From Casimicrobium huifangae (GTDB lineage Bacteria; Pseudomonadota; Gammaproteobacteria; Burkholderiales; Casimicrobiaceae): a stretch of 64,000 bases of DNA. The DNA lies in contig NZ_CP041352.1 in assembly GCF_009746125.1 (NCBI RefSeq), positions 461,847-525,846 on the forward strand, given 5' to 3'. This document shows, piece by piece, positions 16,461 through 56,888 of this stretch. The position numbers and the translations under genes were made by a program. The first letter of the stretch is position 1. The number at the start of each line of letters is the position of its first letter. Under the pieces are notes generated by a model. That model was not told the origin of the DNA, did not search any database, and worked only from the letters and a program-made list of their open reading frames with translations.

Positions 16461-17774
16461 TTATCCGGTATCAAGCAGGCGTGCGGCGCAGACTGACGCA
16501 ACCCAGCGCGGCTCGATGTTTTCGCTGATCGCCAGTCGCAGCAAAGCAGCGAATTCGTCGCGACAGGCCCAGAAGCAGCCTTTGATGTCAATGCGGGCGG
16601 CCACCGACAAAGCCCGTCGCAACGGCACGACAGCCGCTGCGCGGTCTTTCCGGTCCAGCGCGGCAAGCGCCTCAATCAGCGCCATGTCCACTTGCCAGGC
16701 GTCCGGACGCTGCGTCCGCATCTCGAAGACGCGCAAGGCCGATTCGTATTCGCCAACCTGAAGCAGCAACTGCGCTTGCAGTGAGGGTGTCGCCAGCGAC
16801 ATCACGCCATGTTCATCGATTTCCGCAAACAGACGGCACGCAGTGTCAAGTTCGCGCTGGGCGCTCACCACATCCCGCCGCAGGGCATGCCACCAGCTTC
16901 GCTCATAGTGAACATTGGCGCGCAGCATCAGATGGCCATCCGGAATCGCCTCCTGCTCAGCGAGCAGGGCACGTTCGGCCTCAGCAACCTCGCCCCGCAT
17001 CAGGTGGCACAGCGAGACTGTAATGCCCGCCTCACGCGCCGCACGCTGCACGCCGGCGGCATGCGCATTGGTGACTGCTGAAATGCTCTGACCCAATGCT
17101 CCTGCGTAATCGCCACGCCGGTAGTGAAAGTAGAACCCTCGCCGGGCGGATACCCGAGCGCGCGCTACCGCTCCGAACCCGGGGTCGCCGTAAAGCTCAT
17201 CAATCGCTGCCACCAGCGAGTGAGCCGGTTCCCAGCGGCGCTGGCCACTGAAGTATTCGAGCGCGTAGCCGAGCGCGTTGCCGCGAACGGTGGCGGATAC
17301 GGCACTTGCATCACCGACCCAGGGCAGCACGGCGTCCGCGACCTGTGCGGCGCTGGCAAGCGCTTCACCGAACAGATCTGCGGCCAGTATTCCGGCCGCG
17401 ATTTCGAGCCGGGGCTGCGGGTCAAGTGTCGCCAGACGGGCAAATGCAACGTTACGCAGCGCATCGAGCCAGCGGCGCGCTTCGCGGGAAGGGCGCCAGT
17501 CGCTGTAGAGCGCATCCACTACGGACGCACCGATGCGGGCCAGCGCAACCTGGTCGCCGGCCGCACGCGCCATGCGTTCGGCTTCGCGCACCGAGACATC
17601 AAGTGTGGGGCGCTCGAACACCGAATCGGCGTAAACACGCTGCAACCAGTACTCAAGCGAAGGCGTATCGGTCTTTTCTCGCCAGGCGTCGAGCGCTGCA
17701 ACGACGCGGGTGTGGTCGGACTGCAGCCAAGCGGCGCTGACGGCGTCCGGCACCGCCGGGTCCAGCCGGCTCAC
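16461..17774 (-). CDS. TPR-like alpha-helical partner of the hybrid kinase
   Basis: A 437-residue soluble protein made almost wholly of Ala/Arg-rich helical repeats, suggestive of tetratricopeptide-type solenoid structure; no enzymatic motif is seen. It starts with GTG at 17774 and overlaps the stop of the hybrid sensor kinase by four bases (GTGA), so it is made with the kinase. Its C-terminus contains several Cys (GCFWACRDEF and ASVCAARLL). The tight coupling suggests a role in signal input or output of the two-component system, perhaps by binding the kinase or its regulator. This role is inference only; the family is not one I can name. Confidence 0.7.
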   Translation of the reverse strand: MSRLDPAVPDAVSAAWLQSDHTRVVAALDAWREKTDTPSLEYWLQRVYADSVFERPTLDVSVREAERMARAAGDQVALARIGASVVDALYSDWRPSREARRWLDALRNVAFARLATLDPQPRLEIAAGILAADLFGEALASAAQVADAVLPWVGDASAVSATVRGNALGYALEYFSGQRRWEPAHSLVAAIDELYGDPGFGAVARARVSARRGFYFHYRRGDYAGALGQSISAVTNAHAAGVQRAAREAGITVSLCHLMRGEVAEAERALLAEQEAIPDGHLMLRANVHYERSWWHALRRDVVSAQRELDTACRLFAEIDEHGVMSLATPSLQAQLLLQVGEYESALRVFEMRTQRPDAWQVDMALIEALAALDRKDRAAAVVPLRRALSVAARIDIKGCFWACRDEFAALLRLAISENIEPRWVASVCAARLLDTG

Positions 17775-19696
17775 TCGCCACCTCCACTCATTCCCAGCGC
17801 CGCCAGCAGGCGGTCCGAGTCAAGCGGTTTGTGCAGCACCGGGAAGCCGCTGGCGGTGAGGGCGCGCAATCGTTCTGCAGAAGTGTCCCCGGTGATGAGC
17901 ACAATTGGCACGACAGCGCCCACCACCTCGCGCAACCGGTTCGCCGCTTCAATGCCGGTGAAACCATCAAGCAGCCGGTAGTCGACAACGATTGCCGCAA
18001 CCGACGCTTTCTCCTGTCTGGCTACGTCCAGCAGCGGCGCAATGCTGGCTTCGGCGTGAACGCTGACGCCGAGAGCACTGAACAAGGTCTGCATCGAACT
18101 GCGGATCAACGCATCATCATCAAGCACCAATACCAGCTGGCGATCATGCGTCACCGGTCTCATCACCGACGTCACGTGGTTGCGCCGGGGCAAAGCAGTT
18201 CCAGGCAGGGTGACGGTGAAACAAGTGCCACTGCCGAGACGGGAACTGACCTTGATGTCACCTCCGAGCAGTCGAACCGAGCGCGCCACGATGGCGAGCC
18301 CGAGCCCCATTCCGCCCTGCGCCACATCGCTGCGCTTGACCTGGTAGAACTCGTCGAAAATCAACGGCAGATTGGCCGCTGCAATACCGGAGCCCTGATC
18401 CCAGACCTGCAGCAGCACATGGTCGCGACGCGGGCGCAGCGCCACCAGAATGCCACCAGAGCGTGAGAAGCGGATAGCGTTGCTGACCAGGTTATCGATG
18501 ATCCGCCGCAGCAGGGTGGCGTCGGTATGCAGCGTCACGTCGGGAACCCGCGAACGCAGGCGCAACCCCCGTTCACTTGCGCCCGAGCGCAACACTGTCA
18601 AGGCTTCGTCGATCAGTGCCCGGGCACCGACTTCGGCGGCCTCAGCTGAAACTACGCCAGCATCGAATCGCGAGATGTCCAGCACCGCGTTCAACAGGGC
18701 ATCAAGTGATCGTGAAGCCGCCTGAATGCCATCAACCGCCGGCATCAGCGCAGCACTGACATCCGATCCTTTCATGCGCAGCCCCTGACGCAGCGCGGCG
18801 ACGTAGAGCGACAACGCATGCGCTGGCTGCCGCAGATCATGACTTGCCGCCGCGAGAAAGCGGCTCTTGGCGTTGTTGGCAGCCTCCGCCTCGCGCGTGC
18901 GCGCGTCAAGTGCAGCGGTCGCCTGCGCCACGTCGTCGCGCAAGCCGCGGCGGGCAGCATGCAGCGCCCGTGTCATGCTGTTGAAGTCAACGGCGAGCCG
19001 CCGAAATTCGCCGCGTCCGGTCTCCGGCAGTTGCGCCGAAAAATCATCCCGCGCCACTCGTCCCATCGCCGTAGACAACGCCGCCAGTGGTTCGGCGACG
19101 GCCCTGGTCGCGGCTCTTGTCAATGCCAGCGAGAGCAGCACCGCAACCAGCAGGATGGCAGCCCCCGTCCACCACAACCGGGCAACGCTACGCCGCTCGT
19201 CCTCACGCGAGACGCTGAGCGCCACATAGCCAACGCGTTGCCCCGGGCTCGCCCCGGCGTTGACGGGTGCGCTGCCAGATGACGGCAACGCGAAGAGTAC
19301 GACCGGGTGCACCACACTGACCAGATGGGGATCACGTTCTACCTGCACCGACAGCGGCTTGCCGTCCAGCATGCGCAACGCTGTGGCGCCGACGTTGCCA
19401 CGGTTGTCGACGGTCGCGCCATCGCGATCAGTGAGCGAGAGTCCGACAATGCCCACGCTGCGCTCGACAAAATCGGCCACCGCCTGCACGTTGGTTCGCG
19501 AGCCGGTTGCCAGTGGCAGCTCGGCGAGCATGGCGGCCTGTCGCGCCAGTGACACCGTGCGCTCGACGAGATTGCGCTCGATTTCCATCGCGTGCCGCGT
19601 CAGCAGCAGGGCTCCGACGGAGATGACAGCCAGCACCAGCGGCACCAGCGCGGCAAGCAAAATGCGGCTGCGGATGCTGCCGCTTCTCACTCGCAT
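17771..19696 (-). CDS. Hybrid sensor histidine kinase (HAMP-HisKA-HATPase-REC)
   Basis: A 641-residue membrane kinase from the ATG at 19696. Two membrane segments (ILLAALVPLVLAVISVGALL near the N-terminus and AAILLVAVLLSLALTRAA around residue 190) flank a periplasmic sensor of about 130 residues. A HAMP region follows, then the H-box SHDLRQPAHALSLY with the phosphorylatable His, N-box DNLVSNAIRFS, G-boxes DQGSGIAA and GGMGLGLAI, and a C-terminal receiver with LVLDDDALI, phosphoacceptor Asp in VVDYRLLDG, and the switch Thr and Lys (LITGDTS, LHKPLD). The HDLRQP-type H-box is typical of hybrid kinases. It is divergent from the LuxR-type regulator at 19832 and coupled to the TPR-like gene. A 7-2-7 heptamer site lies directly upstream of the start codon. 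Confidence 0.92.
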   Translation of the reverse strand: MRVRSGSIRSRILLAALVPLVLAVISVGALLLTRHAMEIERNLVERTVSLARQAAMLAELPLATGSRTNVQAVADFVERSVGIVGLSLTDRDGATVDNRGNVGATALRMLDGKPLSVQVERDPHLVSVVHPVVLFALPSSGSAPVNAGASPGQRVGYVALSVSREDERRSVARLWWTGAAILLVAVLLSLALTRAATRAVAEPLAALSTAMGRVARDDFSAQLPETGRGEFRRLAVDFNSMTRALHAARRGLRDDVAQATAALDARTREAEAANNAKSRFLAAASHDLRQPAHALSLYVAALRQGLRMKGSDVSAALMPAVDGIQAASRSLDALLNAVLDISRFDAGVVSAEAAEVGARALIDEALTVLRSGASERGLRLRSRVPDVTLHTDATLLRRIIDNLVSNAIRFSRSGGILVALRPRRDHVLLQVWDQGSGIAAANLPLIFDEFYQVKRSDVAQGGMGLGLAIVARSVRLLGGDIKVSSRLGSGTCFTVTLPGTALPRRNHVTSVMRPVTHDRQLVLVLDDDALIRSSMQTLFSALGVSVHAEASIAPLLDVARQEKASVAAIVVDYRLLDGFTGIEAANRLREVVGAVVPIVLITGDTSAERLRALTASGFPVLHKPLDSDRLLAALGMSGGGE

Positions 19697-19698
19697 GC

Positions 19699-19714
19699 TC
19701 CGGCAAATGCCGTA
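19699..19714. promoter_or_regulatory. Candidate LuxR/NarL-type 7-2-7 operator, kinase start
   Basis: TCCGGCA-AA-TGCCGTA: two inverted heptamers separated by 2 bp, the arrangement established for NarL-family regulators. It ends 2 bp from the kinase ATG, where binding could block expression. The right half TGCCGTA is identical to halves at 20510-20516 and 30659-30665. The rest of the 117-bp divergent spacer shows no clear sigma-70 promoter. Confidence 0.55.
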
Positions 19715-19831
19715 CTTCGGTCGCCACCGGCAGGATGGCAAAATCTGCGCATCGACGTGGCGACGCTGTACAGGCAGTGCGTCGCGAGAATTAACTCACC
19801 GGAGCGACGGACTTGCAGCGCGGAGTGACTC

Positions 19832-20491
19832 ATGGCGGTGAATACTAGCGCGACTGGCGACGCCGTGTCGCCCGCCAGTGTGGTGATTGTTGAGGATCAT
19901 TCGCTGATTCGCGATGGCTTGCGCATGTTGCTTGCACTCGAACGCAATTTCCGTCTGATCGGAGAGGCCGGTTCTCTCGCTGAGGCGCGGCGGGTTGTCG
20001 CGGACCAGCAGCCAGACATTGTGATGCTCGACGTCGGCCTGCCCGATGGCGACGGCATTGCGCTGGCGGGCGAGTTGCTGCAACAGCGTCACGACCTGCG
20101 CGTGCTCATTCTGACGGGTGATCTCGGCAGCGACACCGTCGCACGTGCCCTGGCAGTGGGTGCGCATGGCTATGTGCACAAACAGCACAACGCTGATGAG
20201 CTTTTCGCCGCGCTCAATACGTTACGCAACGGCGGTCGCTACGTGAGTGAATCGGTCGCGGCGTCGTTCGTCGCGTCGCGGCCGAAGGCGGCGCCGTCGC
20301 CGCTGGCGGTACTCACCGAGCGCGAACGTGAAGTTGTGGGCCTGCTCTGCGAAGGTGACTCCAGCAAGCACATTGCGCGCAAGCTGGATCTCAGCGTTGG
20401 TACTGTCCGCAAGCATCGCGAAAACATCATGGCAAAGCTCGACGTACACAGCGTCGCCGAGCTGATCGCGCTGGCGCTCAAGCAGCGTTAG
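19832..20491 (+). CDS. LuxR/NarL-family response regulator
   Basis: A 219-residue regulator. The receiver domain (about residues 16-130) has VIVEDHSLIRDG, the phosphoacceptor Asp in VMLDVGLPDGDG, Thr in LILTGD and Lys in YVHKQHN. The C-terminal HTH (about 155-215) is LTEREREVVGLLCEGDSSKH followed by LDLSVGTVRKHRENIMAKL, a normal LuxR-type helix-turn-helix. It is divergent from the hybrid kinase and is presumably its phosphorylation target. A perfect 34-bp palindrome containing a 7-2-7 heptamer pair begins at the base after its stop codon and precedes the exported-protein block. Confidence 0.93.
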   Translation: MAVNTSATGDAVSPASVVIVEDHSLIRDGLRMLLALERNFRLIGEAGSLAEARRVVADQQPDIVMLDVGLPDGDGIALAGELLQQRHDLRVLILTGDLGSDTVARALAVGAHGYVHKQHNADELFAALNTLRNGGRYVSESVAASFVASRPKAAPSPLAVLTEREREVVGLLCEGDSSKHIARKLDLSVGTVRKHRENIMAKLDVHSVAELIALALKQR

Positions 20492-20525
20492 CGGCGACCA
20501 TACGGCAACTGCCGTATGGTCGCCG
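20492..20525. promoter_or_regulatory. Perfect 34-bp palindrome with 7-2-7 heptamers
   Basis: Two 16-bp arms with a 2-bp centre (AC). The core is TACGGCA-AC-TGCCGTA at 20501-20516. There is no following T-run, so a rho-independent terminator is less likely than an operator, though the arms could also fold as RNA. It sits 72 bp before the ATG of the six-cysteine gene at 20598, a position suited to activating or repressing the downstream exported-protein block. Confidence 0.68.
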
Positions 20526-20597
20526 AAGCCGCCGTTACCTAAAGTTTGATCATCGTCACGCACGGCGCGTGGCATCGATCAAGCCGGACGGTACGTC

Positions 20598-21080
20598 ATG
20601 TTTTCTTTGTTCACGTTCAGTGGGATTTGCAGCCGGAGGGCAGGCGTTGGCAAACTGCTGCCGGGTGCCGTTGCGGTCCTTGCTGGTTGCGTGACGCTGG
20701 CGTGGTCGGCGCTGGCCAGCGCCGCTGCCAGCGATGGTGTGCGCTGCCCCAACGGCTACGACACCCACTACGACGCAGCGCGCAAGACCATGCGTTGCGA
20801 GCGCAGCACCCCCGTGTATCGCCCGACCGTGTGCGACCCGGCGGCACCCGAGCATGTTCTCTATCGCGCCAGCAAAGGGCGTGACTTTTGCGTTCGCCCG
20901 ACCGATGGCGCGCTGCCAGCCAGCGTGCTCCCCGACAACGATGCGCGGCGGCGCCCGGCGGTCTGCGTCGGCGACGACAGCGAAGGACTCAAGTGGCAAC
21001 TCAACATTGACGCCAGCCCCAATGAGCGCGATCGCTGCCGGGCAGCCCGCGTCGACTGGATTTATCCGAGCCAGCAATAG
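20598..21080 (+). CDS. Exported six-cysteine protein, paralogue 1
   Basis: A 160-residue protein with a hydrophobic N-terminal export signal (LLPGAVAVLAGCVTLAWSAL, then ALASAAA as likely cleavage region). The mature part has six Cys in the segments RCPNG, MRCERS, TVCDPA, DFCVRP, AVCVGD and DRCRAA, which suggests three disulphides in the periplasm or outside. The protein at 30167-30550 has the same number and similar surroundings of Cys (ACPPGTAY against VCDPAAPEHVLY; GDLCY against RDFCV; RDKCQA against RDRCRA), so the two look like diverged members of one family that I cannot name. It is first in a four-gene block (gaps of 29, 11 and 90 bp). Confidence 0.75.
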   Translation: MFSLFTFSGICSRRAGVGKLLPGAVAVLAGCVTLAWSALASAAASDGVRCPNGYDTHYDAARKTMRCERSTPVYRPTVCDPAAPEHVLYRASKGRDFCVRPTDGALPASVLPDNDARRRPAVCVGDDSEGLKWQLNIDASPNERDRCRAARVDWIYPSQQ

Positions 21081-21109
21081 CGCTGGTACGACTGGACCGA
21101 GGGGCCATC

Positions 21110-23230
21110 ATGCAGACTCATCATCACCGCAGACCGCTGCTCCGTGCAGCGCTGGCAATCGGACTGTTCGCAAGCGCTGCTGGCGCACCGGCAGCGGCTC
21201 AGGTTGCCGGCGTACCGATCGCGATCGAAAAGCCGACGTTCGCGGGGCAAACCATCAAGGCTGGTGACACACTGGAAGTGAAAACTTCGCGCGAGCTGAC
21301 TCCGGCAGACGGTCAGATCGCCATCTGCATCGGGCCGCTCGATCTGTCAAAGCAGACCCGCGCCATCAACGCCACCACCTTTCGCGCCGAACCCGCTGGC
21401 GCGACGTTGCCACCAGGCCCGCAGGAGGTGGTGGTCCATCTCATTCGTGGCGACCAGTGGATTGACCTTGCCAAGTTCACGGTGAACGTGGAAGGTCCCG
21501 CCAGCAGCGATGCCGGCACCGCCAGCAAAGGGCTCGAAAGCCGCTTCACCATCGGCATGAAAGGGCAGTTGCATGAGCGCGTGTCGGGCACGACCAAAGC
21601 TGGCACACGCGCACAGTTTCAGGATCTCACCACCACGGGGGCGCTCAACTGGGAAGGCAAGCCGCTCGGGTGGGATACGAAGACCAGCGCCAATCTGACC
21701 GGTGTCAGCAAGCGCAGCGAGGCACCACGGTTCGGCACCGAAGGCATCAACGCAGAGAAGCTTGATCTCAACGACTACAAGGCCGAGTTCACCCGCGGTG
21801 ATGCGAAATTCGCGATTGGCCATCTGACCTACGGCAACCATCCGCTACTGATCAACAACCGCGACAGCCGTGGCGTCACGCTTGGCTACGCGATCACGCC
21901 GTGGCTCGACGTATCAGCCAGTGCCATCCGCGCCACCAGCATCGTGGGTTTCGATGATCTCTTCGGTCTCTCGACGGTGGATCATCGCATTTACGCCACC
22001 ACGGTTGGCGTTGAAATGCTGCCTGCGAAGAAGGGGCTGCTGCGCGGTGAGCTGATGTTTATGAACGCTCACGCGCAGCCGCAGGCGAACGTCAATCAGG
22101 GACAGATCCCCGATGCCGAGAAGAGCCGTGGCCTCGGCGTACGCCTGCTGTCCACCGACCCGGATGGCCGCTGGAAGGGCGACGCCATGTGGGCGCGCTC
22201 GCGCTACGTCAACCCGACGCATCCTGATCTCGCGCAGGGCAGCGCGCTGGTCGCGGTGAAGCCGGAGACGCGCGACGCCTGGCAGGCCGAAGCCTCCTAT
22301 CTTCTTGTCAAGGACGCCAAGTGGCTGGGCGACAAATACCCGGTCAATCTGCGCGCGATTGCCCACTACGAATATGCCGAGCCGCTGTTCAAGAGCCTGG
22401 GTGCCAGCTTCCTTGCTGACCAGCAGCTCACCCGCTACAGCGCCGAGGCACGAGCGGGCGAGATCGCCCTGACGCTGGTGGGCAGCGAGAAGAACGACAA
22501 CGTCAAGACCATCCCGACCATCCTGAAGACGGGCACCTACGAAAAGCTGGCGCAACTCACGGTACCGTGGCCGAGCGTGTTCGGCACTGCCGAAAAGCCG
22601 GCCACGCTGCTGCCGCAGATGCAGCTGGAATCGCGCCGTGTGCGGCAGTACACGCTGCGCATTCCGGACGGCACCAATGCGCGCTCCTCGTTCTGGCCCG
22701 ACCAGATCAACTACAGCCACAAGGCCGCGCTGAACTGGAACCACGAGCCCTACTCGGTGAGCTACACGTTCGAGATTGGTGATCAGGACAACCGGCAGCC
22801 AGGCCGCGAGGCGGCGGATTTCCTCATTCACACGCACGGAATCACTGTTGCCTGGCGCGTGAATGACAAGCTCAACCTGAACCTTGGCTACAACCGCAGC
22901 CGCAATTACAGCTATGAGAAGTCGCAGGCCACCTACAACAACGGTGGCACCGCAGGTATCGAATGGCAGTTCGCCGACGTCTGGTCGGTGAAGGGCGACT
23001 ACGCCAAGGCGCTCGCCTTCGATTCGCTCAACCAGCAATACAGCAACACGCTCACCACCGCGTTGCAACTGGCCCGCAAATTCACGCTTGAGCAGTTCGG
23101 CAAGAAGCTGCCGGGGCAAATATTCGTCCGTGTTGCCTTCGCCCACAACCGCGCGCTCGACACCGTCGTTGCGCAAGTGCTCTCCGGGCGGCAAACGCTG
23201 GTGCAAACCGGGCTCTCCCTCAATTTCTAG
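21110..23230 (+). CDS. Large outer-membrane beta-barrel-like protein
   Basis: A 706-residue exported protein. The signal peptide is within residues 1-31 (LLRAALAIGLFASAAGAPAAAQ). Residues ~35-130 look like an Ig-like beta domain (AGDTLEVKTSRELTPADGQ). From ~residue 150 to the end the sequence is a series of amphipathic strands with alternating charged/aromatic residues and ends LVQTGLSLNF, the terminal Phe expected for Bam-assembled barrels. No TonB box, plug domain or POTRA repeats are seen. Lying between three other exported proteins in one orientation, it could anchor or export them. The family is not recognised; the barrel assignment rests on composition and the C-terminal Phe. Confidence 0.72.
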   Translation: MQTHHHRRPLLRAALAIGLFASAAGAPAAAQVAGVPIAIEKPTFAGQTIKAGDTLEVKTSRELTPADGQIAICIGPLDLSKQTRAINATTFRAEPAGATLPPGPQEVVVHLIRGDQWIDLAKFTVNVEGPASSDAGTASKGLESRFTIGMKGQLHERVSGTTKAGTRAQFQDLTTTGALNWEGKPLGWDTKTSANLTGVSKRSEAPRFGTEGINAEKLDLNDYKAEFTRGDAKFAIGHLTYGNHPLLINNRDSRGVTLGYAITPWLDVSASAIRATSIVGFDDLFGLSTVDHRIYATTVGVEMLPAKKGLLRGELMFMNAHAQPQANVNQGQIPDAEKSRGLGVRLLSTDPDGRWKGDAMWARSRYVNPTHPDLAQGSALVAVKPETRDAWQAEASYLLVKDAKWLGDKYPVNLRAIAHYEYAEPLFKSLGASFLADQQLTRYSAEARAGEIALTLVGSEKNDNVKTIPTILKTGTYEKLAQLTVPWPSVFGTAEKPATLLPQMQLESRRVRQYTLRIPDGTNARSSFWPDQINYSHKAALNWNHEPYSVSYTFEIGDQDNRQPGREAADFLIHTHGITVAWRVNDKLNLNLGYNRSRNYSYEKSQATYNNGGTAGIEWQFADVWSVKGDYAKALAFDSLNQQYSNTLTTALQLARKFTLEQFGKKLPGQIFVRVAFAHNRALDTVVAQVLSGRQTLVQTGLSLNF

Positions 23231-23241
23231 CCGGATCGGGA

Positions 23242-24543
23242 ATGATCATGCTCAAGTTCATCGCGCCGTCGTTGCGTGCTACTACAGGTGTTGTAGCAGC
23301 ACTGTTTGCCACATACAGCTTTGCCATCAGTGCCGTCAACCCCACCGGCGTCAACGTGCGCAGCAATGCGCCAAACACGGTATTCATCACCTTTCAGGGG
23401 CTGGAGCCCAACGAGCGAGCGATTGAGGCGCTGTGGTGCGGCACCGTGCAACCTGGCATCGGTGCCGGTTCGGTCAGCAGCAGCGACCCCTGTGTTCCCG
23501 GCACGTTGTTCGGCCGCCTGCCGCTCAACTTCGACCGCTCGCGTGCTACGCAGGGCATAGGCCAGCGCAACTTCAGCGACATCATGGTGATCCCGGAGTC
23601 AGTCGTGCGCCGCGCCGTGCAGGAAGGCATCGAAGGCAAGAACAGCGATTTCTTCTACGTGCGCCACTTCACCGGCGGCAGTACCGGCGACAAGTGGGTG
23701 GTGGTCACCTGCCGCCTCGGCGCTGGCGGCGCCCGCACGCCGCTGTCGCTGATCGACGTGAAGATCGTTTTTTCGGGGCAGGCTGATCCGACCCAACTGT
23801 TCGTCCTCCGCAGTGGCGAGCGCCTGCCCCGTTTTTCTGCCGAGATCCAGTACAACGGCTCGGGCCAGCTGAAAGGCCGATGGGAACTGGTGCGTCCTGG
23901 TGACAGCGACCCCGAGGTCAACGATCTGCTGACCGAAGCGACGCTGCCGCTGGAGCTGCGCGCGCTGCAAAAGCGCTACACCACGCTGAGCCGCTTCTCG
24001 CAGTTTGTGATGCCGAACAGCAGTGTGCGCATTGATGGCCCGGACCCGGCGCTGCTCGACACCCGCGTCGAAGGACCGTATCAGGTGCTGCTGCGCATTG
24101 AGGCCAGTGACGACAAGGAGGCCAACTCCGAGATCGGCAACGGCGCGCTGGTCAAGACCGGTGGCGTTGCCGGCTTTCCGATGCCCACGCTGAAGTATTT
24201 CGTCGGCGACGTGGCAAATGCGCGCAACGCCGCTCCTGGATCCAATGCAGGGGCGAAGGCGGTTGATCTCATGTTGCCGCTGACCGATACCACGGTCGAC
24301 GCAAGCCGCGCCGTCACCTTCGAATGGATCGAAGTGAGTGGTGCTGCGAGTTATCGCATTGACGTCGAAAGTGCCGACAAGCTGATCGTCACCAGCACCG
24401 TGCAGGGCACCCGCTATGCACCTCCACCCGGCTGGCTCGCGGCCCGCGTGCAGGGCGGCGCGCTGTGGCGCGTCACGGCGCTCGACGCCGGTGGGCGACC
24501 GATCGCGCAGAGCAATACGCGGCGATTTGTGCTGAAAGGCTGA
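23242..24543 (+). CDS. Exported protein of the four-gene block
   Basis: A 433-residue protein with a signal sequence (LRATTGVVAALFATYSFAIS). The mature region is predicted beta-rich. Around residues 350-430 it resembles a fibronectin-type III or Ig-like fold (VTFEWIEVSGAASYRIDVES). Cys residues are few (WCGTVQ, DPCVPG, TCRLG). It starts 11 bp after the barrel gene, so it is very likely co-transcribed with it. I do not recognise the family. The FN3-like C-terminus suggests binding to a partner or cell-surface polymer. Confidence 0.66.
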   Translation: MIMLKFIAPSLRATTGVVAALFATYSFAISAVNPTGVNVRSNAPNTVFITFQGLEPNERAIEALWCGTVQPGIGAGSVSSSDPCVPGTLFGRLPLNFDRSRATQGIGQRNFSDIMVIPESVVRRAVQEGIEGKNSDFFYVRHFTGGSTGDKWVVVTCRLGAGGARTPLSLIDVKIVFSGQADPTQLFVLRSGERLPRFSAEIQYNGSGQLKGRWELVRPGDSDPEVNDLLTEATLPLELRALQKRYTTLSRFSQFVMPNSSVRIDGPDPALLDTRVEGPYQVLLRIEASDDKEANSEIGNGALVKTGGVAGFPMPTLKYFVGDVANARNAAPGSNAGAKAVDLMLPLTDTTVDASRAVTFEWIEVSGAASYRIDVESADKLIVTSTVQGTRYAPPPGWLAARVQGGALWRVTALDAGGRPIAQSNTRRFVLKG

Positions 24544-24595
24544 GCCGCTGCAGTCCATCGCACCTCGCCTACCGCGTCAGTTCCACCACATTGCC

Positions 24596-24613
24596 GCTGC
24601 CGGAAACGGCAGC
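24596..24613 (+). terminator. GNRA-loop hairpin between block genes
   Basis: GCTGCCG, loop GAAA, CGGCAGC: a perfect 7-bp stem with a stable GAAA tetraloop in the 90-bp gap between the third and fourth exported-protein genes. No U-tract follows, so it may be an mRNA-stability or partial attenuation element rather than a terminator. Confidence 0.45.
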
Positions 24614-24633
24614 AACAACAACCAGGTCATCTT

Positions 24634-25884
24634 ATGAAACAAAGGATCATCACCATGAAACTATTGTCTAAACCGCTCTGGCGGGTTGCTACCACCAGCC
24701 TCGCCGCTGCCGCGGTTCTTGCCGTTGACGCTGCTCATGCCGCCACCGAACTGCTGGTCACCAGCGATGTCAGCGGCGACCAGGCGCCGGCCACCTGCAT
24801 GTCGCGCGAAGTCAACCTGGTCAGTGGCATCACCGTGCCGATGCGCCGTGGTGGCCGTAACACCATCCGCCTGCAGGAGCCCGGCATCAGCGCCAAGCTC
24901 ACCGCCGTTGCGCTCAGCAACTGCCCGTCCTGCACCAGCAACATCCGCCGCGCTGGCGACACGGCGCGGGTGGACATCACGGTGCCGGAAACCACCCCCG
25001 TTGGCACCGGCCCGAGCGTGGTGCTCAAAATCACCGGCCGCCCGGACCCGGTGATCAATCTGTCGATCAACCCCGGCTACAGCATCGCCACCAACATGAT
25101 GCCGCAGATTGGCACCGTGCGAAAAGGCGACACAGTCACCCTCGCGGGCCGCGACCTCGATGCCGGTTCGATGAAGGTTGAGCCCGCCTGCGTTGCCATC
25201 GCCGGGCGCACGGCCAACAGCCTCAAGCTGCAATACAACTGCGAAGTGCAGTCCGGCTTTCAGGGCACGCTGGTCACCGTGAAGATGTTCCACAACGTGC
25301 CCGCTGCGCAGCGCTGCGAGCTTGCGCAGGACTGGCGCATCGCCAACTTCGATGCCAACGCCAAGCCCGATCTCACCCCGGCGCTTGACCAGTTTGGCTC
25401 GAAGCCATTTCGCCCGGTGACGCCCGGCAGCAATAACGTCGACGCCTCGTTCTGCCGCAACCTGCCGCCGCCGGACTCGGTATGTGACCGCATCTTCAAT
25501 TCGACCGACGGCACGGTGCGCGACGTCAACTGCCGACCGGGCATCGCGCAGGGCTTTGTCGCCATCCCGGCGCTGAATTTCTCGGTGAAGAACATCGGCG
25601 ATGCGCCTGCTGCGCCTACCGTCACCAAAGTCACCGATGGCACTGGCCGCGAGCTGGTGACCAACAACACGCTCGCCGTGCCAAACGGGCAGGCAATGCC
25701 AGTGAAGGTGCGCGACGCCAAATCGGTCCGCGTGACCGCCGCGGGGCCAACTGGCTGCCAGCTCGATGTCGTCGGCCTCACGGCCAGCCCGTTCGACGCG
25801 GATGTTTACGTGGTCAAAGTCGACACCGGCAACGTGCTCAACGAAGGCGGCGCCGGCAAAGCCAACAACGAGGGGCGGTTCTAG
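24634..25884 (+). CDS. Exported CARDB/Ig-like protein of the four-gene block
   Basis: A 416-residue protein with a signal peptide ending VDAAHAATE. Several beta-sandwich stretches follow, e.g. IGTVRKGDTVTLAGRDLDAG and FVAIPALNFSVKNIGDAPAA, the latter typical of CARDB-like adhesion modules. It is rich in Cys (about ten), suggesting disulphides. Two in-frame starts are possible: 24634 (with AGG upstream) and 24655 (with AAAGGA upstream). The 90-bp gap before it contains a hairpin. It closes the block; a hairpin at 25911-25928 follows. Function is unknown; surface or periplasmic attachment is inferred. Confidence 0.66.
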   Translation: MKQRIITMKLLSKPLWRVATTSLAAAAVLAVDAAHAATELLVTSDVSGDQAPATCMSREVNLVSGITVPMRRGGRNTIRLQEPGISAKLTAVALSNCPSCTSNIRRAGDTARVDITVPETTPVGTGPSVVLKITGRPDPVINLSINPGYSIATNMMPQIGTVRKGDTVTLAGRDLDAGSMKVEPACVAIAGRTANSLKLQYNCEVQSGFQGTLVTVKMFHNVPAAQRCELAQDWRIANFDANAKPDLTPALDQFGSKPFRPVTPGSNNVDASFCRNLPPPDSVCDRIFNSTDGTVRDVNCRPGIAQGFVAIPALNFSVKNIGDAPAAPTVTKVTDGTGRELVTNNTLAVPNGQAMPVKVRDAKSVRVTAAGPTGCQLDVVGLTASPFDADVYVVKVDTGNVLNEGGAGKANNEGRF

Positions 25885-25910
25885 TCACCTGGTTCGCATT
25901 TGCTCACGAT

Positions 25911-25928
25911 CGCCGCCTGCGGGCGGCG
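25911..25928 (+). terminator. GC-rich hairpin after exported-protein block
   Basis: CGCCGCC, loop TGCG, GGCGGCG: a perfect 7-bp stem 27 bp after the stop of the last block gene. No U-run, so termination is plausible but unproven. The following ~90 bp up to the dispersed repeat show nothing else recognisable. Confidence 0.45.
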
Positions 25929-26018
25929 CGTAGCTGACGCCTCTGCGCGACGGGAGCAGACGCGCGCTCTCACGCGGGCGAGCTTATCGGCGCTGGCGCG
26001 GGCGCGCGGCAGGCACAT

Positions 26019-26135
26019 CACCTTTTGTGTCAAATGGCGTCAGTCTTGGGCTTGACCGCCGATTCGGCACAAAGTCGACTTGATGCCATTTCATGCTCTG
26101 AGCCCTAATTGAATAAGGGTTTAACAAAATAGCTG
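26019..26135 (+). repeat. Dispersed intergenic element, copy A
   Basis: A 117-bp element. The left end CACCTTTTGTGTCAAA and right end TTTAACAAAATAGCTG are imperfect inverted repeats of each other. Internal blocks shared with other copies are TTGGGCTTG, CACAAAGTCGACTTGATGCC and GAGCCCTAATTGAATAAGGG; in the last, CCCT/AGGG can pair around an AT-rich loop and is followed by TTT. It lies between the exported-protein block and the arsenic operon. Confidence 0.68.
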
Positions 26136-26185
26136 ATCGCCGGGATCACGCAAATTTCTCCCTAAACGCTTGACGTTTTCGATAT

Positions 26186-26201
26186 TTCTATGAAAATAGA
26201 A
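26186..26201 (+). promoter_or_regulatory. Candidate ArsR operator
   Basis: TTCTAT-GAAA-ATAGAA, an inverted repeat 2 bp before the arsR ATG. A possible -35 element TTGACG is at 26170-26175, so the operator would overlap the core promoter, as expected for an autorepressing ArsR. The surrounding 60 bp are AT-rich compared with the rest of the window. Confidence 0.6.
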
Positions 26202-26203
26202 TT

Positions 26204-26557
26204 ATGGAAACCAACAACGCCGCCGCCAAACTCGCCGCCCTTGCCCAGCCGACGCGGCTGGACATCTTCCGCGCCCTTGTCGTTGCCGGCGCGCCGGGGC
26301 TGCCTGCCGGCGCGCTCGCCGAGCAACTGGGCGTGGCGCCGCCGGTGCTCTCGTTCCACCTGAAAGAGCTGCGCTTCGCGGAGCTGGTGGATTCCGAGAC
26401 ACAGGGCCGTTATGTGATTTACCGGGCGCGCTTCGACACCATGAACGCGCTGCTCGCCTTCCTGACTGAAAACTGCTGCGCGCGCAGCACGACGCAGGAC
26501 GCATCCTGCTGTGTGCCGGATCTGGCCAGACCGGCGCGCGACCCCAAAACCCCCTGA
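26204..26557 (+). CDS. arsR: ArsR-family arsenical-responsive repressor
   Basis: A 117-residue winged-helix repressor with the ArsR pattern ALAQPTRLDIFRALVVAG near residue 12 and recognition region GVAPPVLSFHLKELRFAELV. The classic CVC metal site of helix 4 is absent; instead the C-terminus has two vicinal Cys pairs, TENCCARSTTQDASCC, resembling the C-terminal As(III) site of Acidithiobacillus-type ArsR. Binding of As(III) or methyl-As(III) there would release the repressor. It is the first gene of an arsR-arsI-arsC-aqpS operon with gaps of 10, 15 and about -1 bp. Confidence 0.92.
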   Translation: METNNAAAKLAALAQPTRLDIFRALVVAGAPGLPAGALAEQLGVAPPVLSFHLKELRFAELVDSETQGRYVIYRARFDTMNALLAFLTENCCARSTTQDASCCVPDLARPARDPKTP

Positions 26558-26567
26558 AAGATCAAAC

Positions 26568-27071
26568 ATGAAACGATTTCACGTTCACGTTGCGGTTGAC
26601 GATCTGGCGCAGAGCACGCGTTTCTACAGCGCGCTGTTCGGTGCCGCGCCGGCTGTTGAAAAGGCGGACTACGTCAAGTGGATGCTCGACGATCCGCGCG
26701 TCAATTTCGCCATCTCGGCGCGCGGCCAGTCGCCGGGTGTCAATCACCTCGGTCTGCAGGTCGACAGCGACGACGAACTGGCCGCGCTCAAGACGCAGCA
26801 CAACGCCGCCGCGTTGGCGCTGTTTGACGAGGGCGAGACCAGCTGCTGCTACGCGCACAGCAACAAGCACTGGCTGACCGACCCGCAGGGCGTGGCCTGG
26901 GAGGTCTATCACACGATGGGCGAGGTGGAAACGTTCAATGGAGCGGTGGCACCGTCCTGCGGCAGCAGCGACACCGCGAAGGCGAGCGGTTGCTGCGTAC
27001 CCGCTGCGTCGTCGGCCAACGCCGCACCGACTGAGGCGAAGCGCACCAGCGGTTGCTGCGCACCGGCCTGA
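26568..27071 (+). CDS. arsI: ArsI/CadI-family VOC protein (C-As lyase candidate)
   Basis: A 167-residue vicinal-oxygen-chelate protein starting at ATG 26568. The N-terminus MKRFHVHVAVDDLAQSTRFY and SPGVNHLGLQV are typical of ArsI/CadI proteins. The vicinal Cys pair of ArsI C-As lyases, which binds trivalent organoarsenicals, is present in GETSCCYAHSNKHW, and WEVYHTM supplies the last metal ligand (Glu). Two more vicinal pairs, SGCCVP and SGCCAPA, are on the tail. ArsI enzymes break the carbon-arsenic bond of methyl- and aromatic As(III). The operon setting supports ArsI rather than a cadmium-induced role. Confidence 0.88.
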   Translation: MKRFHVHVAVDDLAQSTRFYSALFGAAPAVEKADYVKWMLDDPRVNFAISARGQSPGVNHLGLQVDSDDELAALKTQHNAAALALFDEGETSCCYAHSNKHWLTDPQGVAWEVYHTMGEVETFNGAVAPSCGSSDTAKASGCCVPAASSANAAPTEAKRTSGCCAPA

Positions 27072-27086
27072 GCCAGCGGACCCATC

Positions 27087-27593
27087 ATGAGCAAGACGTA
27101 CAACGTGCTCTTTCTGTGCACCGGCAACTCCGCCCGCAGCGTGATGGCCGAGGCGCTGGTCTCGGTGATCGGCGGTGGGCGCTTTGTCGGCTACAGCGCT
27201 GGCAGTCATCCCACCGGTCGAGTCAACCCGTTCGCGGTGGAGCTGACCACGCAGATTGGCTATCCGGCCGACCGGCTGCGCAGCAAATCATGGGACGAAT
27301 TCGCCACGCCCGACGCGCCGCAGATGGACTTCATCATCACCGTCTGCGACAACGCGGCGGGCGAAGTGTGCCCCTATTGGCCCGGCAAGCCGGCCACCGC
27401 GCACTGGGGCTTTGCCGACCCGGCGGGGGTTGAGGGTAGCGATGAAGAAAAGCGGCAGGCGTTCCGCCACATCTTCAACGAGATCACGCAGCGCGTGCGC
27501 GCGTTCGCCAGTTTGCCGCTGGCGGCGCTCGATGCGCAGTCGCTGCAACACGAAGTACGCAAGATCGGCGAAACGCAGGCGGCGACGGTGTGA
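27087..27593 (+). CDS. arsC: Arsenate reductase, low-molecular-weight phosphatase type
   Basis: A 168-residue arsenate reductase of the LMW tyrosine-phosphatase fold. The catalytic P-loop is LCTGNSARS (C-x5-R) near residue 11. The later segment FIITVCDNAAGEVCPYWPG contains the two resolving Cys of the thioredoxin-coupled type, and HWGFADPA supplies the catalytic Asp. It reduces As(V) to As(III). The stop codon overlaps the aqpS start (TGATG). Confidence 0.93.
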   Translation: MSKTYNVLFLCTGNSARSVMAEALVSVIGGGRFVGYSAGSHPTGRVNPFAVELTTQIGYPADRLRSKSWDEFATPDAPQMDFIITVCDNAAGEVCPYWPGKPATAHWGFADPAGVEGSDEEKRQAFRHIFNEITQRVRAFASLPLAALDAQSLQHEVRKIGETQAATV

Positions 27594-28246
27594 TGCTCCG
27601 GCGTGCGCTGGTTGCCGAGTTTCTCGGCTCGCTGCTGCTCGCCTGCGTGGTGGTCGGCAGCGGCATCTTGGCCGAGCGGCTGGCGGCGGGCAACGCGGCG
27701 GTTGCGCTCCTGGGCAACACACTGGCGACGGTGGCGGCGCTTGGCGTGCTGATTGTGCTGTTCGGCCCGCTCTCCGGCGCGCAGTTCAACCCGATCGTAT
27801 CGCTGGTGCTGGCGTTGCGTGGCGAGCAGGGGTGGCGTGTCGCAGCCGCATATGTGCCTGCACAGGTGGTTGCCATGATCGCCGGTGCATGGCTGGCGCA
27901 CGCCATGTTCGGTTTGCCGCTGATGCAGTCGGCCACCCAGGCGCGTGGCTCGTTCGGCGAAGCGCTGGGTGAGTTTGTCGCGACCTTCTGGCTGTTGCTC
28001 ACCCTTCTGGGCACCCTGGCGACGCGGCCAGTCGCCGTGGTGTTGACGGTGCCGGCGGCCATCGCGGCGGGCTACTGGTTCACCTCGTCAACGTCGTTTG
28101 CCAACCCGGCGATCACCATTGCGCGCTCCCTCACCGACACCTTCGCCGGGGTCCGCGCCGACGACGTGACGACTTTTATCGCCGCGCAACTGCTGGGCGG
28201 AGTCGCTGCCTTGGCGGTAGCGCGGCTATTGTGGCGAGCGCGTTGA
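27593..28246 (+). CDS. aqpS: AqpS-like MIP channel of the arsenic operon
   Basis: A 217-residue aquaporin-family channel with six hydrophobic segments. The first NPA box is changed to NPI (SGAQFNPIVSL); the second is normal (SFANPAITIARSL). In Sinorhizobium the similar AqpS in an arsR-aqpS-arsC-arsH operon lets As(III) leave down its gradient. No ArsB or Acr3 pump is seen here, so this channel is the likely exit route. The ATG at 27593 overlaps the arsC stop; a GTG one codon upstream is also possible. It is convergent with the HTH gene at 28274. Confidence 0.87.
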   Translation: MLRRALVAEFLGSLLLACVVVGSGILAERLAAGNAAVALLGNTLATVAALGVLIVLFGPLSGAQFNPIVSLVLALRGEQGWRVAAAYVPAQVVAMIAGAWLAHAMFGLPLMQSATQARGSFGEALGEFVATFWLLLTLLGTLATRPVAVVLTVPAAIAAGYWFTSSTSFANPAITIARSLTDTFAGVRADDVTTFIAAQLLGGVAALAVARLLWRAR

Positions 28247-28273
28247 CGCCATCACCGGCGCCGACGCCGACGA

Positions 28274-29482
28274 TCAGCGCCGCGGGTCGAGGCGCGGTCT
28301 GCCGTCGCCAGTCGTGGAGAGCCCGCGAACCTCTGGCAATAACTGCTCGGCGGCCAGCGCCAGTAGCCGGTCGCCGCCGGGCAGCAGATAGCGCTCGGCC
28401 GGTGCCGACACGCCGCAATCAGTCAGTGCAATCGAATCGAGCAGGCGCGTCGGATGCACACCCAGCGTCTCGGCCAGATGGGCACGGCAACTGATCAAAC
28501 GGTTGAGCAGTGGCGAAATCATGGCCCGCAGACCGGGTGAATTCGAACGGAAGAATGCCAGCGCCACCGAGAATCCGGTGAGCGGGCCATAGTCGATGCT
28601 GTCATCGACCGCGCACAGCAGCCGTTGCACCGCTGCGGTGTTGCCCTGTTCGAGCAGGACCGAAAGCTCCGACGCGAAGCGGAAATCGCGGGTACTGTCG
28701 AACGCCCCATCGGAGAACACCGGCGGCGCCTTGGCGCGATCACTGGGCCAGGGCAACGGTGGCGCCGACACCAGCAACGGCGACTCGACGGTGCCAAACG
28801 CCAGCATCGGCCGCAGCCACGGCACATTGCCCAGATCAAGCGCACGATCCAGTGACGCGACCAGCTTGTCCGACAGTTCCGCGCCGGAGGCGACCAGCAC
28901 CAGCCGCTGGAAGAGCTCGTGTTGACCGTTTACGTGCGGCCATTTGTCCGCCTGCCAGTAACCACTGGTGGCTACCAGCAGCACGGCATGCCAGGCGGCG
29001 GGCGACAGCAGCGAGATGGTCATTGCCTCGGCGTCCGCGCGGTCGCGAGCAGCCGCGCTCGGGGCCGGACGCCACGCGCGCGATCGCAATTGCAGCGCCA
29101 TGGCGGACGTTTCGGGCGAGGGCAGCACCATGCTGGGCGAGTAGCCGAGCGATGCGCGCAACAGCTCGGCGTAGCGCAGCATCGTCGGGTCCGCGGCGGT
29201 GCGCCCCAGGCCGCGCACCGTCATCCAGAAATGCAGAAAGGTCGCCGTCGAAGGCAAGCCGAGTGCATCCTGCCGGCGGACCAGCCGCTTGCGGATCGCG
29301 TCGCAGCTGAGGCCCAGCTCAAAACAGATGGATTTGAGGTTGTCACCGAGCGCGAAACGGTCCAGCAACTGGCATTCGTCGTCGTCGATGGACGCAAAGA
29401 ATGCGCCCCAGCGGGCCGCTGCCCGCGCAAGGGTGACATCATCAAGATAAGTGGCGGAAGCGCCGACGGACACACCGGTCAT
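28274..29482 (-). CDS. Putative HTH regulator, unknown family
   Basis: A 402-residue protein. Residues ~35-80 (DECQLLDRFALGDNLKSICF then ELGLSCDAIRKRLVRRQDAL) look like a LuxR/sigma-4-type helix-turn-helix. The remaining ~320 residues are Ala/Leu-rich with no enzymatic motif that I recognise; no signal peptide or membrane segment is evident. It is 160 bp downstream of the exported TPR gene on the same strand, possibly in the same unit as the second six-cysteine gene. DNA binding is inferred. Confidence 0.6.
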   Translation of the reverse strand: MTGVSVGASATYLDDVTLARAAARWGAFFASIDDDECQLLDRFALGDNLKSICFELGLSCDAIRKRLVRRQDALGLPSTATFLHFWMTVRGLGRTAADPTMLRYAELLRASLGYSPSMVLPSPETSAMALQLRSRAWRPAPSAAARDRADAEAMTISLLSPAAWHAVLLVATSGYWQADKWPHVNGQHELFQRLVLVASGAELSDKLVASLDRALDLGNVPWLRPMLAFGTVESPLLVSAPPLPWPSDRAKAPPVFSDGAFDSTRDFRFASELSVLLEQGNTAAVQRLLCAVDDSIDYGPLTGFSVALAFFRSNSPGLRAMISPLLNRLISCRAHLAETLGVHPTRLLDSIALTDCGVSAPAERYLLPGGDRLLALAAEQLLPEVRGLSTTGDGRPRLDPRR

Positions 29483-29642
29483 TTTTGTTGTGCTTGTTCT
29501 GTTGTGCGAACGCAGAATATCGGAAAAATCCCGCCCGCAAGTGTCCCAATTGAGACAAGAAAAAACACTTCAGACCAACGGCACCTGTGTGGCGATCAGG
29601 TGCTACGCGACCGGAACCAATCCCGGTCGGTGTTGAGGGGGA

Positions 29643-30113
29643 CTACTGCGGTTTGTACTCCGCGATTGCCCTGGCCAGCAGCTTGTATTCCTCGCAGTCC
29701 TTCCCGCAGAGACCATCCAGGGTGGCGAGTTCGGCGCGCGCTTTGGCAAGGTCATTGGTCCGCACGTAGGCAGCGCCGCGATAGCTGTGCGCGCCGCGAT
29801 GATGTGGATCAAGCGCGAGGGCACGCTCGTAGGCAGCGAACGCCGCCTTATAGTCGCCCGCCCAGCGGCTTGAGTAGCCCAGCATGTTCCAGGCGTCGGC
29901 GTTCTTCGGGTCTTGCAGCGTGGCGCGGGTGAAGGCGTCCACCGCAGCTTTCCACTGTTTGGCTTCGACGGCCTGCTGACCAGCCACGTAGTCGGTAGAC
30001 GCGGCGTTTTTGGCCGGGCTGGTTTCGGTGTCAGCAGCGTGTGACAGCGTGATGGAAGTGAGGGCGCCGAGCAATGCGGCGGCATGGCGAAATCGGGTGT
30101 TGGTGGTGGGCAT
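29643..30113 (-). CDS. Exported tetratricopeptide-repeat protein
   Basis: From the ATG at 30113 the protein has 156 residues, with a signal peptide (FRHAAALLGALTSITLSHAA). About three TPR units follow, e.g. AAVDAFTRATLQDPKNADAW, NMLGYSSRWAGDYKAAFAAY and ERALALDPHHRGAHSYRGAA. The C-terminal LCGKDCEEYKLLARAIAEY has two Cys that could pair. It lies 53 bp after the six-cysteine protein 2 gene and is probably co-transcribed with it. A periplasmic scaffold or assembly role is inferred. Confidence 0.82.
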   Translation of the reverse strand: MPTTNTRFRHAAALLGALTSITLSHAADTETSPAKNAASTDYVAGQQAVEAKQWKAAVDAFTRATLQDPKNADAWNMLGYSSRWAGDYKAAFAAYERALALDPHHRGAHSYRGAAYVRTNDLAKARAELATLDGLCGKDCEEYKLLARAIAEYKPQ

Positions 30114-30166
30114 GGTTTGCTCCGCGATGTGCGCGAGGGTACGCACTGGCGCACCCTCGGCATGGC

Positions 30167-30550
30167 TTATTCGTTGCGCGTCTTGATGTTGCCGAAGACC
30201 GTACGTTCCTTCTCAGCCTGACACTTGTCGCGCGCGCCGCGGTTGATGTCCATGCGCTGGCCGATGCCGCAGGGCAGGGCCGGCAGGCTCGACATCTGTT
30301 TGCCAGAGACGGTCTCGTAGCAGAGATCACCGCCGTCACTGGCCTCGGTCTTGCCCGCAACGTAGGCGGTGCCGGGCGGGCAGGCACGGCTGCCGACGTC
30401 GTCCCAGAACTTTTCGGTTTTGGCGCAAACAGCTTTGTCGCCGGAGACTTTCTGAATGTCAAATCCGGAGTCGCAGTAGGCGACTTCGCGGGCTTGTGCG
30501 CTGCCAAACAGGGCGATGGCAGCGAAAGTAGCGAGCAGATAGCGTTTCAT
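30167..30550 (-). CDS. Exported six-cysteine protein, paralogue 2
   Basis: A 127-residue protein starting at ATG 30550, with AGGAG 8 bp upstream. The signal peptide MKRYLLATFAAIALFGSAQA is followed by six Cys: AYCDSG, AVCAKT, RACPPG, DLCYET, LPCGIG and DKCQAE. The spacing and flanking residues resemble the protein at 20598-21080. A cluster of four TGCCGTA-like heptamers lies 100-137 bp upstream, the same motif as before the first paralogue's block, suggesting common control. It heads a unit with the TPR gene and perhaps the HTH gene. Confidence 0.78.
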   Translation of the reverse strand: MKRYLLATFAAIALFGSAQAREVAYCDSGFDIQKVSGDKAVCAKTEKFWDDVGSRACPPGTAYVAGKTEASDGGDLCYETVSGKQMSSLPALPCGIGQRMDINRGARDKCQAEKERTVFGNIKTRNE

Positions 30551-30649
30551 GATGGTTGACTCCTGTAGTTCGTTCAAGTGATGTGGCGGTGGTGCCGGAC
30601 GCACATCCGGCATGGGATGAACTTTAGAAGTGCAGACGCGGGCTGAACA

Positions 30650-30687
30650 TACGCAGATTGCCGTAGAGCGGTTGCCGTATTGGCGTA
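30650..30687. promoter_or_regulatory. Heptamer cluster, candidate response-regulator sites
   Basis: TACGCAG-AT-TGCCGTA (30650-30665) is a 7-2-7 inverted pair. It is followed by TGCCGTA (30673-30679) and TGGCGTA (30681-30687) in direct orientation. The cluster lies upstream of the leftward six-cysteine gene. Clusters of heptamers are usual for activation by NarL/FixJ-type regulators. Confidence 0.58.
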
Positions 30688-37578: not shown

Positions 37579-37646
37579 ACGAAAATCACGTTATCGAGAG
37601 CCCCCACGGCTTGCGCTGCAGCAAGGCAACGGGGCGGGCGCCCGAT

Positions 37647-56860: not shown

Positions 56861-56888
56861 CACAAGTTGACGTTAACGTCAACTTGTG
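56861..56888. promoter_or_regulatory. Perfect 28-bp palindrome, candidate operator of icmF
   Basis: The centre is TTGACGTTAACGTCAA, with CACAAG/CTTGTG as outer arms. It is perfectly symmetric and lies 58 bp upstream of the icmF start. Similar ACGT-type palindromes are operators for regulators of branched-chain and fatty-acid catabolism in proteobacteria (LiuR/PsrA/FadR types). The exact regulator is not shown by the sequence. Confidence 0.7.

Follow-up and report, generated by a model that had tools for sequence, protein, structure and literature searches.

Genes and paired heptamers of the locus

The DNA considered here (the window) is a stretch of 64,000 bp of Casimicrobium huifangae, bases 461847-525846 of its single-contig 4.47-Mb genome (63% G+C). 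Along with a response regulator gene, a divergent hybrid histidine kinase gene and two loci of exported proteins, it possesses three 7-2-7 boxes, i.e. inverted heptamers separated by 2 bp, two of which are followed by the same -10-like octamer:

17771-19696, minus strand: hybrid histidine kinase (HAMP, HisKA, HATPase, receiver), divergent from the regulator
19699-19714, no strand: box TCCGGCA-AA-TGCCGTA between kinase and regulator, possibly autoregulatory
19832-20491, plus strand: LuxR/NarL-type response regulator of 219 amino acids (aa; Response_reg 82.7 bits, GerE 63.8 bits)
20492-20525, no strand: perfect 34-bp palindrome with 16-bp arms around the 20501 box, directly after the regulator stop codon
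20501-20516, plus strand: box TACGGCA-AC-TGCCGTA, proposed activator site of the cys6a operon, sole exact match in the genome
20539-20546, plus strand: octamer CTAAAGTT, its TAAAGT (20540-20545) 23 bp from the 20501 box
20598-21080, plus strand: cys6a, exported protein of 160 aa; by eye, six cysteines follow the leader
21110-23230, plus strand: OM706, possibly a beta-barrel protein of the outer membrane (TonB_dep_Rec_b-barrel match weak and below cut-off)
23242-24543, plus strand: p433, exported protein, a homolog of which follows OM706 in the genomes G007 and G001
24634-25884, plus strand: p416, exported protein, by gene order probably the last gene of the operon
29643-30146, minus strand: TPR protein (TPR167) behind cys6b, with a 70% identical ortholog behind the boxed gene in G001
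30167-30550, minus strand: cys6b, exported six-cysteine protein of 127 aa from ATG 30550, with a decayed homolog in genome G011
30620-30627, minus strand: octamer CTAAAGTT, its TAAAGT (30626-30621) 23 bp from the 30650 box
30650-30665, minus strand: box TACGGCA-AT-CTGCGTA, proposed activator site of cys6b-TPR167, identical in G001
30673-30687, minus strand: two further heptamers, TACGCCA (30687-30681) and TACGGCA (30679-30673), upstream of the 30650 box

The regulator combines a receiver with a LuxR-type DNA-binding domain and thus belongs to the NarL/FixJ family. This agrees with the initial annotation, which had placed a NarL/LuxR-type regulator divergent from its kinase and had given the heptamers at 19699, 20501 and 30650 with the right letters and coordinates. 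Compared with TACGGCANNTGCCGTA over the 14 heptamer positions, the boxes reach 14/14 at 20501, 13/14 at 19699 and 11/14 at 30650, each with the inverted heptamers and 2-bp gap of a NarL-type operator. The window contains 10 sites with up to three mismatches to TACGGCANNTGCCGTA, against 2.54 ± 1.43 expected, a number reached in 0 of 100 shuffles. Besides the three boxes (the 30650 palindrome has three mismatches) these are six sites with two or three mismatches, at 7846, 8729, 8960, 17298, 57340 and 61581, and a tenth at 30664 that overlaps the 30650 box. Genome-wide, TACGGCA-NN-TGCCGTA has a single exact match, 20501; the sites 19699 and genome position 4384761, and no others, deviate from it by one base. 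As palindromes, the 19699 and 20501 boxes are exceptional and the 30650 box is not. The earlier statement that such pairs occur only at these three places therefore holds for 20501 and 19699, two of the three genome sites within one mismatch, and fails for 30650, which six other window sites equal. Single TGCCGTA heptamers are present 20 times in the window (both strands), and the arrangement TTGCCGTA-N(0-20)-TTGCCGTA has its single genome occurrence at 30658.

Geometry and conservation of the two promoters

At both promoters the TAAAGT, a putative -10 element, lies 31 bp from the box centre. CTAAAGTT occurs 4 times in the window (both strands), two of these copies being the ones behind the 20501 and 30650 boxes, and an octamer of 8/8 within five offsets is met at 0.0165% of random positions. 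A box of at least 11/14 combined with an octamer of at least 7/8 at a gap of 20-27 bp is present twice in the window and in 0 of 40 simulated sequences (first-order Markov, 64 kb each). Though a weak palindrome, the minus-strand 30650 site is the best supported of the boxes, because its TAAAGT is 23 bp away as at 20501 and because the congener G001 keeps box, hexamer and octamer.

In G001, a draft genome rated 92% complete, the site adjoins dprA. The gene that it precedes encodes an exported protein of 163 aa in which six cysteines were counted by eye, and the next gene is the TPR167 ortholog (70% identical over 140 aa), so that the site represents the syntenic promoter. With block limits chosen after the alignment had been seen, identities between window and G001 are 16/16 in the box, 6/6 in the next hexamer, 7/14 in the spacer and 11/11 in the octamer block, against 5/15 in the upstream and 16/38 in the downstream flank. 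The 163-aa protein itself is hardly alike cys6b (E 0.14), and it matches cys6a near the first cysteines only (29 residues; 34% over 56 aa by tblastn). G011 possesses the box TACGGCA-AA-CTTCGTA at the same place, without the octamer. The outer heptamer (TACGCCA in the window, TACGGCA in G001 and G011) starts 22, 22 and 23 bp upstream of the box, respectively, counted by eye on the aligned sequences. Next to dprA, G011 carries a decayed, frameshifted cys6b remnant (L056:9616-10130) with two heptamers left upstream.

A relaxed box, TACGGCANNYKSCGTA with one mismatch, is found at 14 places in the genome, three of them the window's sites. In the 11 places outside the window, all of which were fetched, the octamer reaches 5/8 in one and 2-4/8 in ten; these places were rejected as regulon members, the octamer being missing in all. 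The stop-to-stop frames around them span 157-576 codons, with 157 and 166 as the shortest two. Since the promoter boxes themselves lie in frames of 118 and 175 codons, a position in a frame is little informative, and in such G+C-rich DNA only the long frames argue for coding sequence. A rescan of 176 loci, based on half-box scores plus octamer, kept four: the two promoters described here, one in G001 and a weaker one in G006 (L109), with a right half of 4/7, GTAAAGTT and a gap of 24. Apart from this weaker case, a box half plus CTAAAGTT at this spacing is seen in 2 of 119 genomes. By the criteria of box and octamer, the visible regulon consists of the two promoters plus the 19699 site.

A candidate activator and competing explanations

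The two loci of exported proteins probably form one small regulon, as the initial annotation had proposed, because they share the same kind of box, the spacing and the octamer, and because the promoter is conserved base for base in these blocks in G001. We propose that one NarL/FixJ-type activator binds as a dimer to each of the boxes 20501-20516 and 30650-30665. Bound about 43 bp upstream of the putative start, by a poor -35 element and 23 bp from the TAAAGT -10, it would recruit RNA polymerase and switch on cys6a-OM706-p433(-p416) and cys6b-TPR167 together, and a second dimer may bind at the single outer heptamer, some two helical turns upstream of the cys6b box. Most likely, this activator would be the response regulator whose gene lies between the boxes; the divergent hybrid kinase would phosphorylate it. 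That one activator, most likely this neighbour, drives both operons from the two boxes is given a probability of roughly 0.65. The 19699 box, 802 bp from that at 20501 and on the opposite side of the regulator gene, lies 2 bp before ATG 19696 of the kinase gene, or within the kinase frame should translation start at TTG 19741; it could serve either gene and would let the regulator control its own gene or that of the kinase.

The E. coli NarL heptamer has the consensus TACYYMT, to which the TACGGCA of the present boxes does not conform. The 7-2-7 operators of E. coli NarL/NarP share the inverted heptamers, the 2-bp gap and the outer TAC...GTA with those described here and differ in the inner bases; it was the 7-2-7 layout that the initial annotation had compared with NarL-type regulators. 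Excerpts of PMC4549865 describe binding of NarL as a dimer to inverted heptamers 2 bp apart, the use of single heptamers as at narG, and an engineered NarL site, TACCCCTAAAGGGGTA; the heptamer shown in that paper is TACCCCT. At E. coli ogt1052, according to an excerpt of PMC9314961, activation needs no more than a single NarL site, placed 32 bp upstream of the -10, which is close to the 31 bp found here. The regulator is not NarL itself (NF007935: 119 bits, cut-off 250), nor does it reach the cut-off of its best NCBIfam equivalog model, PRK15369 (153, cut-off 242), and the kinase beside it is a hybrid. Among solved chains, those of EsrB, SsrB and FixJ come nearest to its DNA-binding domain, while the full-length protein is closest to DevR, the best PDB match, and NarL. 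The dormancy regulators DevR and OsdR likewise use 16-nt palindromic operators (OsdR consensus AGGGCCGATCGGCCCT in the excerpted PMC5069765), in other bacteria and at other targets. The TACGGCA box is not described in the excerpted parts of PMC6821963, where the heptamer occurs in primers, or of PMC5069765, where it occurs in a table. The design, a NarL-type 7-2-7, is known and the box sequence is unusual.

Several results weigh against the proposed activator and its sites. Taken alone, the box with up to two mismatches occurs at 20 places in the genome against 75 for the reversed control, and the relaxed box TACGGCANNYKSCGTA is rarer than its control in this genome as in each of the 17 genomes searched. 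The extended half-site GTTGCCGTATNGNCG has a third exact genome copy outside the window (G000:C1:3376894-3376908) and, with one mismatch, 10 copies against 17 in the control. The 20501 promoter is among the 5 places with half-site plus YAAAGT, for which the control gives 10; this pattern is unable to match the 30650 half-site. Across the 119 genomes, TACGGCA-N31-34-YAAARTT gives 32 matches in 24 genomes against about 55 for the reversed control by our own count; two of the 32, both in G063, had no locus and were excluded from the rescan. At the 19699 box the octamer is at best 5/8, as at 5% of random positions. No sigma-70 promoter is called in either promoter region, which, together with the 31-bp geometry, would fit activation rather than repression. 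The regulator has no match above 35% identity in 16 congener genomes, including G001, where box and target are kept; either the gene is missing from the draft or the box is read there by a different regulator. Finally, the 34-bp palindrome 20492-20525 could also act as an RNA hairpin. The initial annotation had named an equal density of such boxes in ordinary DNA as the outcome that would speak against a regulon. This is what the counts of the box alone give, and not those of box plus octamer.

The missing ortholog in G001 leads to the explanation that both promoters are co-regulated through the boxes by another protein, e.g. a genus-wide LuxR-type regulator, with the neighbour a bystander. 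G001 keeps box, octamer and target, and other LuxR-type regulators are present in both genomes. We nevertheless regard this as rather unlikely, since two of the three best 7-2-7 sites of the genome flank the regulator gene, the 2 of 119 genomes with box half and CTAAAGTT are few for a genus-wide regulator, and the regulator gene may fall into the missing part of the G001 draft. Mere chance, i.e. heptamer pairs arising from GCC-rich sequence, would agree with the unenriched box counts and the 20 single heptamers of the window; the spacing, the octamer and the conservation across species make it highly improbable.

The palindrome could instead form a hairpin that ends or stabilises the transcript of the regulator gene, and resemble the other sites partly by accident. 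It stands directly behind the stop codon, and the RNA fold of 20470-20560 has a strong stem (z -5.6). At least three (L091, L093, L095) of the seven stretches with CATACGGCANNTGCCGTATG in genome_contigs show longer, hairpin-like arms, and the sole regulator match in these loci, some 3.7 kb from the L094 site, is a distant one (26% over 100 aa). The palindrome is followed by no T-run, as an intrinsic terminator would be, and is not listed as a terminator; moreover, its octamer has the same spacing as that at 30650, and a hairpin accounts for neither the 19699 box nor the G001 promoter. We consider it improbable as the sole explanation, and both roles could coexist. In a Clostridia metagenome-assembled genome (L095:1246-2379) the CATACGGCANNTGCCGTATG hairpin is repeated about 1.1 kb apart.

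Two wider distributions of the box were examined and rejected. The exact 20501 core occurs in 6 of 399 genomes of the order, C. huifangae included, against 37 for the reversed control (our own count), which speaks against an order-wide operator. A plasmid-borne or widely repeated element is not indicated by the 18 plasmid records with short matches, five of them shown at E 4.

If one activator does read both boxes, orphan exported proteins without known domains would gain a likely regulator, an exact operator and a testable promoter geometry. It would also suggest that a NarL-type domain recognises a heptamer other than the classical one.

Exported proteins and other features of the window

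The cys6b start is most likely ATG 30550 rather than 30613, judging by eye from an AGGAG ribosome site and a signal peptide; this start leaves about 100 bp between the gene and the end of the box upstream. Cys6a and cys6b have the six-cysteine layout in common but are little alike in sequence, with 23% identity over 127 aa (E 0.016 for the pair). Beyond G011, cys6b has a weak match in G026 alone (26%, E 1.8e-4), which a search of the fetched stretch at E 0.01 did not reproduce. None of cys6a, cys6b, OM706, p433 and p416 matches a curated family above cut-off. OM706 has no relative in genome_contigs, and its single-sequence structure prediction (mean predicted local distance difference test score, pLDDT, 31.7) was not used.

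Homologs of OM706 and p433 lie side by side in G007 (L054:2708-10256) and G001 (L055:4362-13952), near an extracytoplasmic function (ECF) sigma factor and, in G001, also a Ser/Thr kinase; no match to the present kinase or regulator is seen in those stretches. The fetched G007 stretch contains no exact heptamer upstream of OM706, and the G001 stretch a single one, more than 6 kb upstream. Because of the ECF sigma factor near these homologs, one control system seems to have replaced another at this module. It is possible, if doubtful, that the promoter design (TACGGCA-NN-CTGCGTA or TGCCGTA, then 23 bp and TAAAGT in CTAAAGTT; at cys6b-type promoters also an outer heptamer, about 22 bp further upstream) has been preserved across species while the six-cysteine exported protein behind it became nearly unrecognisable, a single signalling input thereby driving fast-changing surface proteins, and that control of OM706-p433 was swapped from the ECF sigma factor of its relatives to the present two-component system. 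In G007 the module adjoins an exported protein (L054:3455-5764) with AAGGGN-like repeats and C-terminal repeats of the ricin-type beta-trefoil lectin, a sugar-binding domain.

The kinase has matches of 31-42% in 24 of 399 genomes of the order, its own included, and no clear ortholog pair in the loci examined. At 1e-70 no match appears in the five congeners listed, among which G001 and G011 are not shown. Its C-terminal part is NahK/ErcS-like, below cut-off. It is adjoined by a further gene:

16461-17774, minus strand: 437-aa protein with a weak TPR match

As stated earlier, arsenic-type genes (26204-28246; ArsR-like, glyoxalase-like, ArsC-like and aquaporin-like, named by eye) lie between the two loci. 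They contain no TGCCGTA heptamer and have no link to the boxes beyond their position.

Elsewhere in the window, a perfect 28-bp palindrome, CACAAGTTGACGTTAACGTCAACTTGTG (56861-56888), looks like a conserved operator; a 24-bp version is found in G011 (L056:6038-6061) near the start of a long mutase-like open reading frame (by eye). The open reading frame 37611-39458 (UbiB/ABC1-kinase-like, by eye) contains a stretch of about 33 codons twice in tandem (about 37690-37900), both copies with the same protein sequence.

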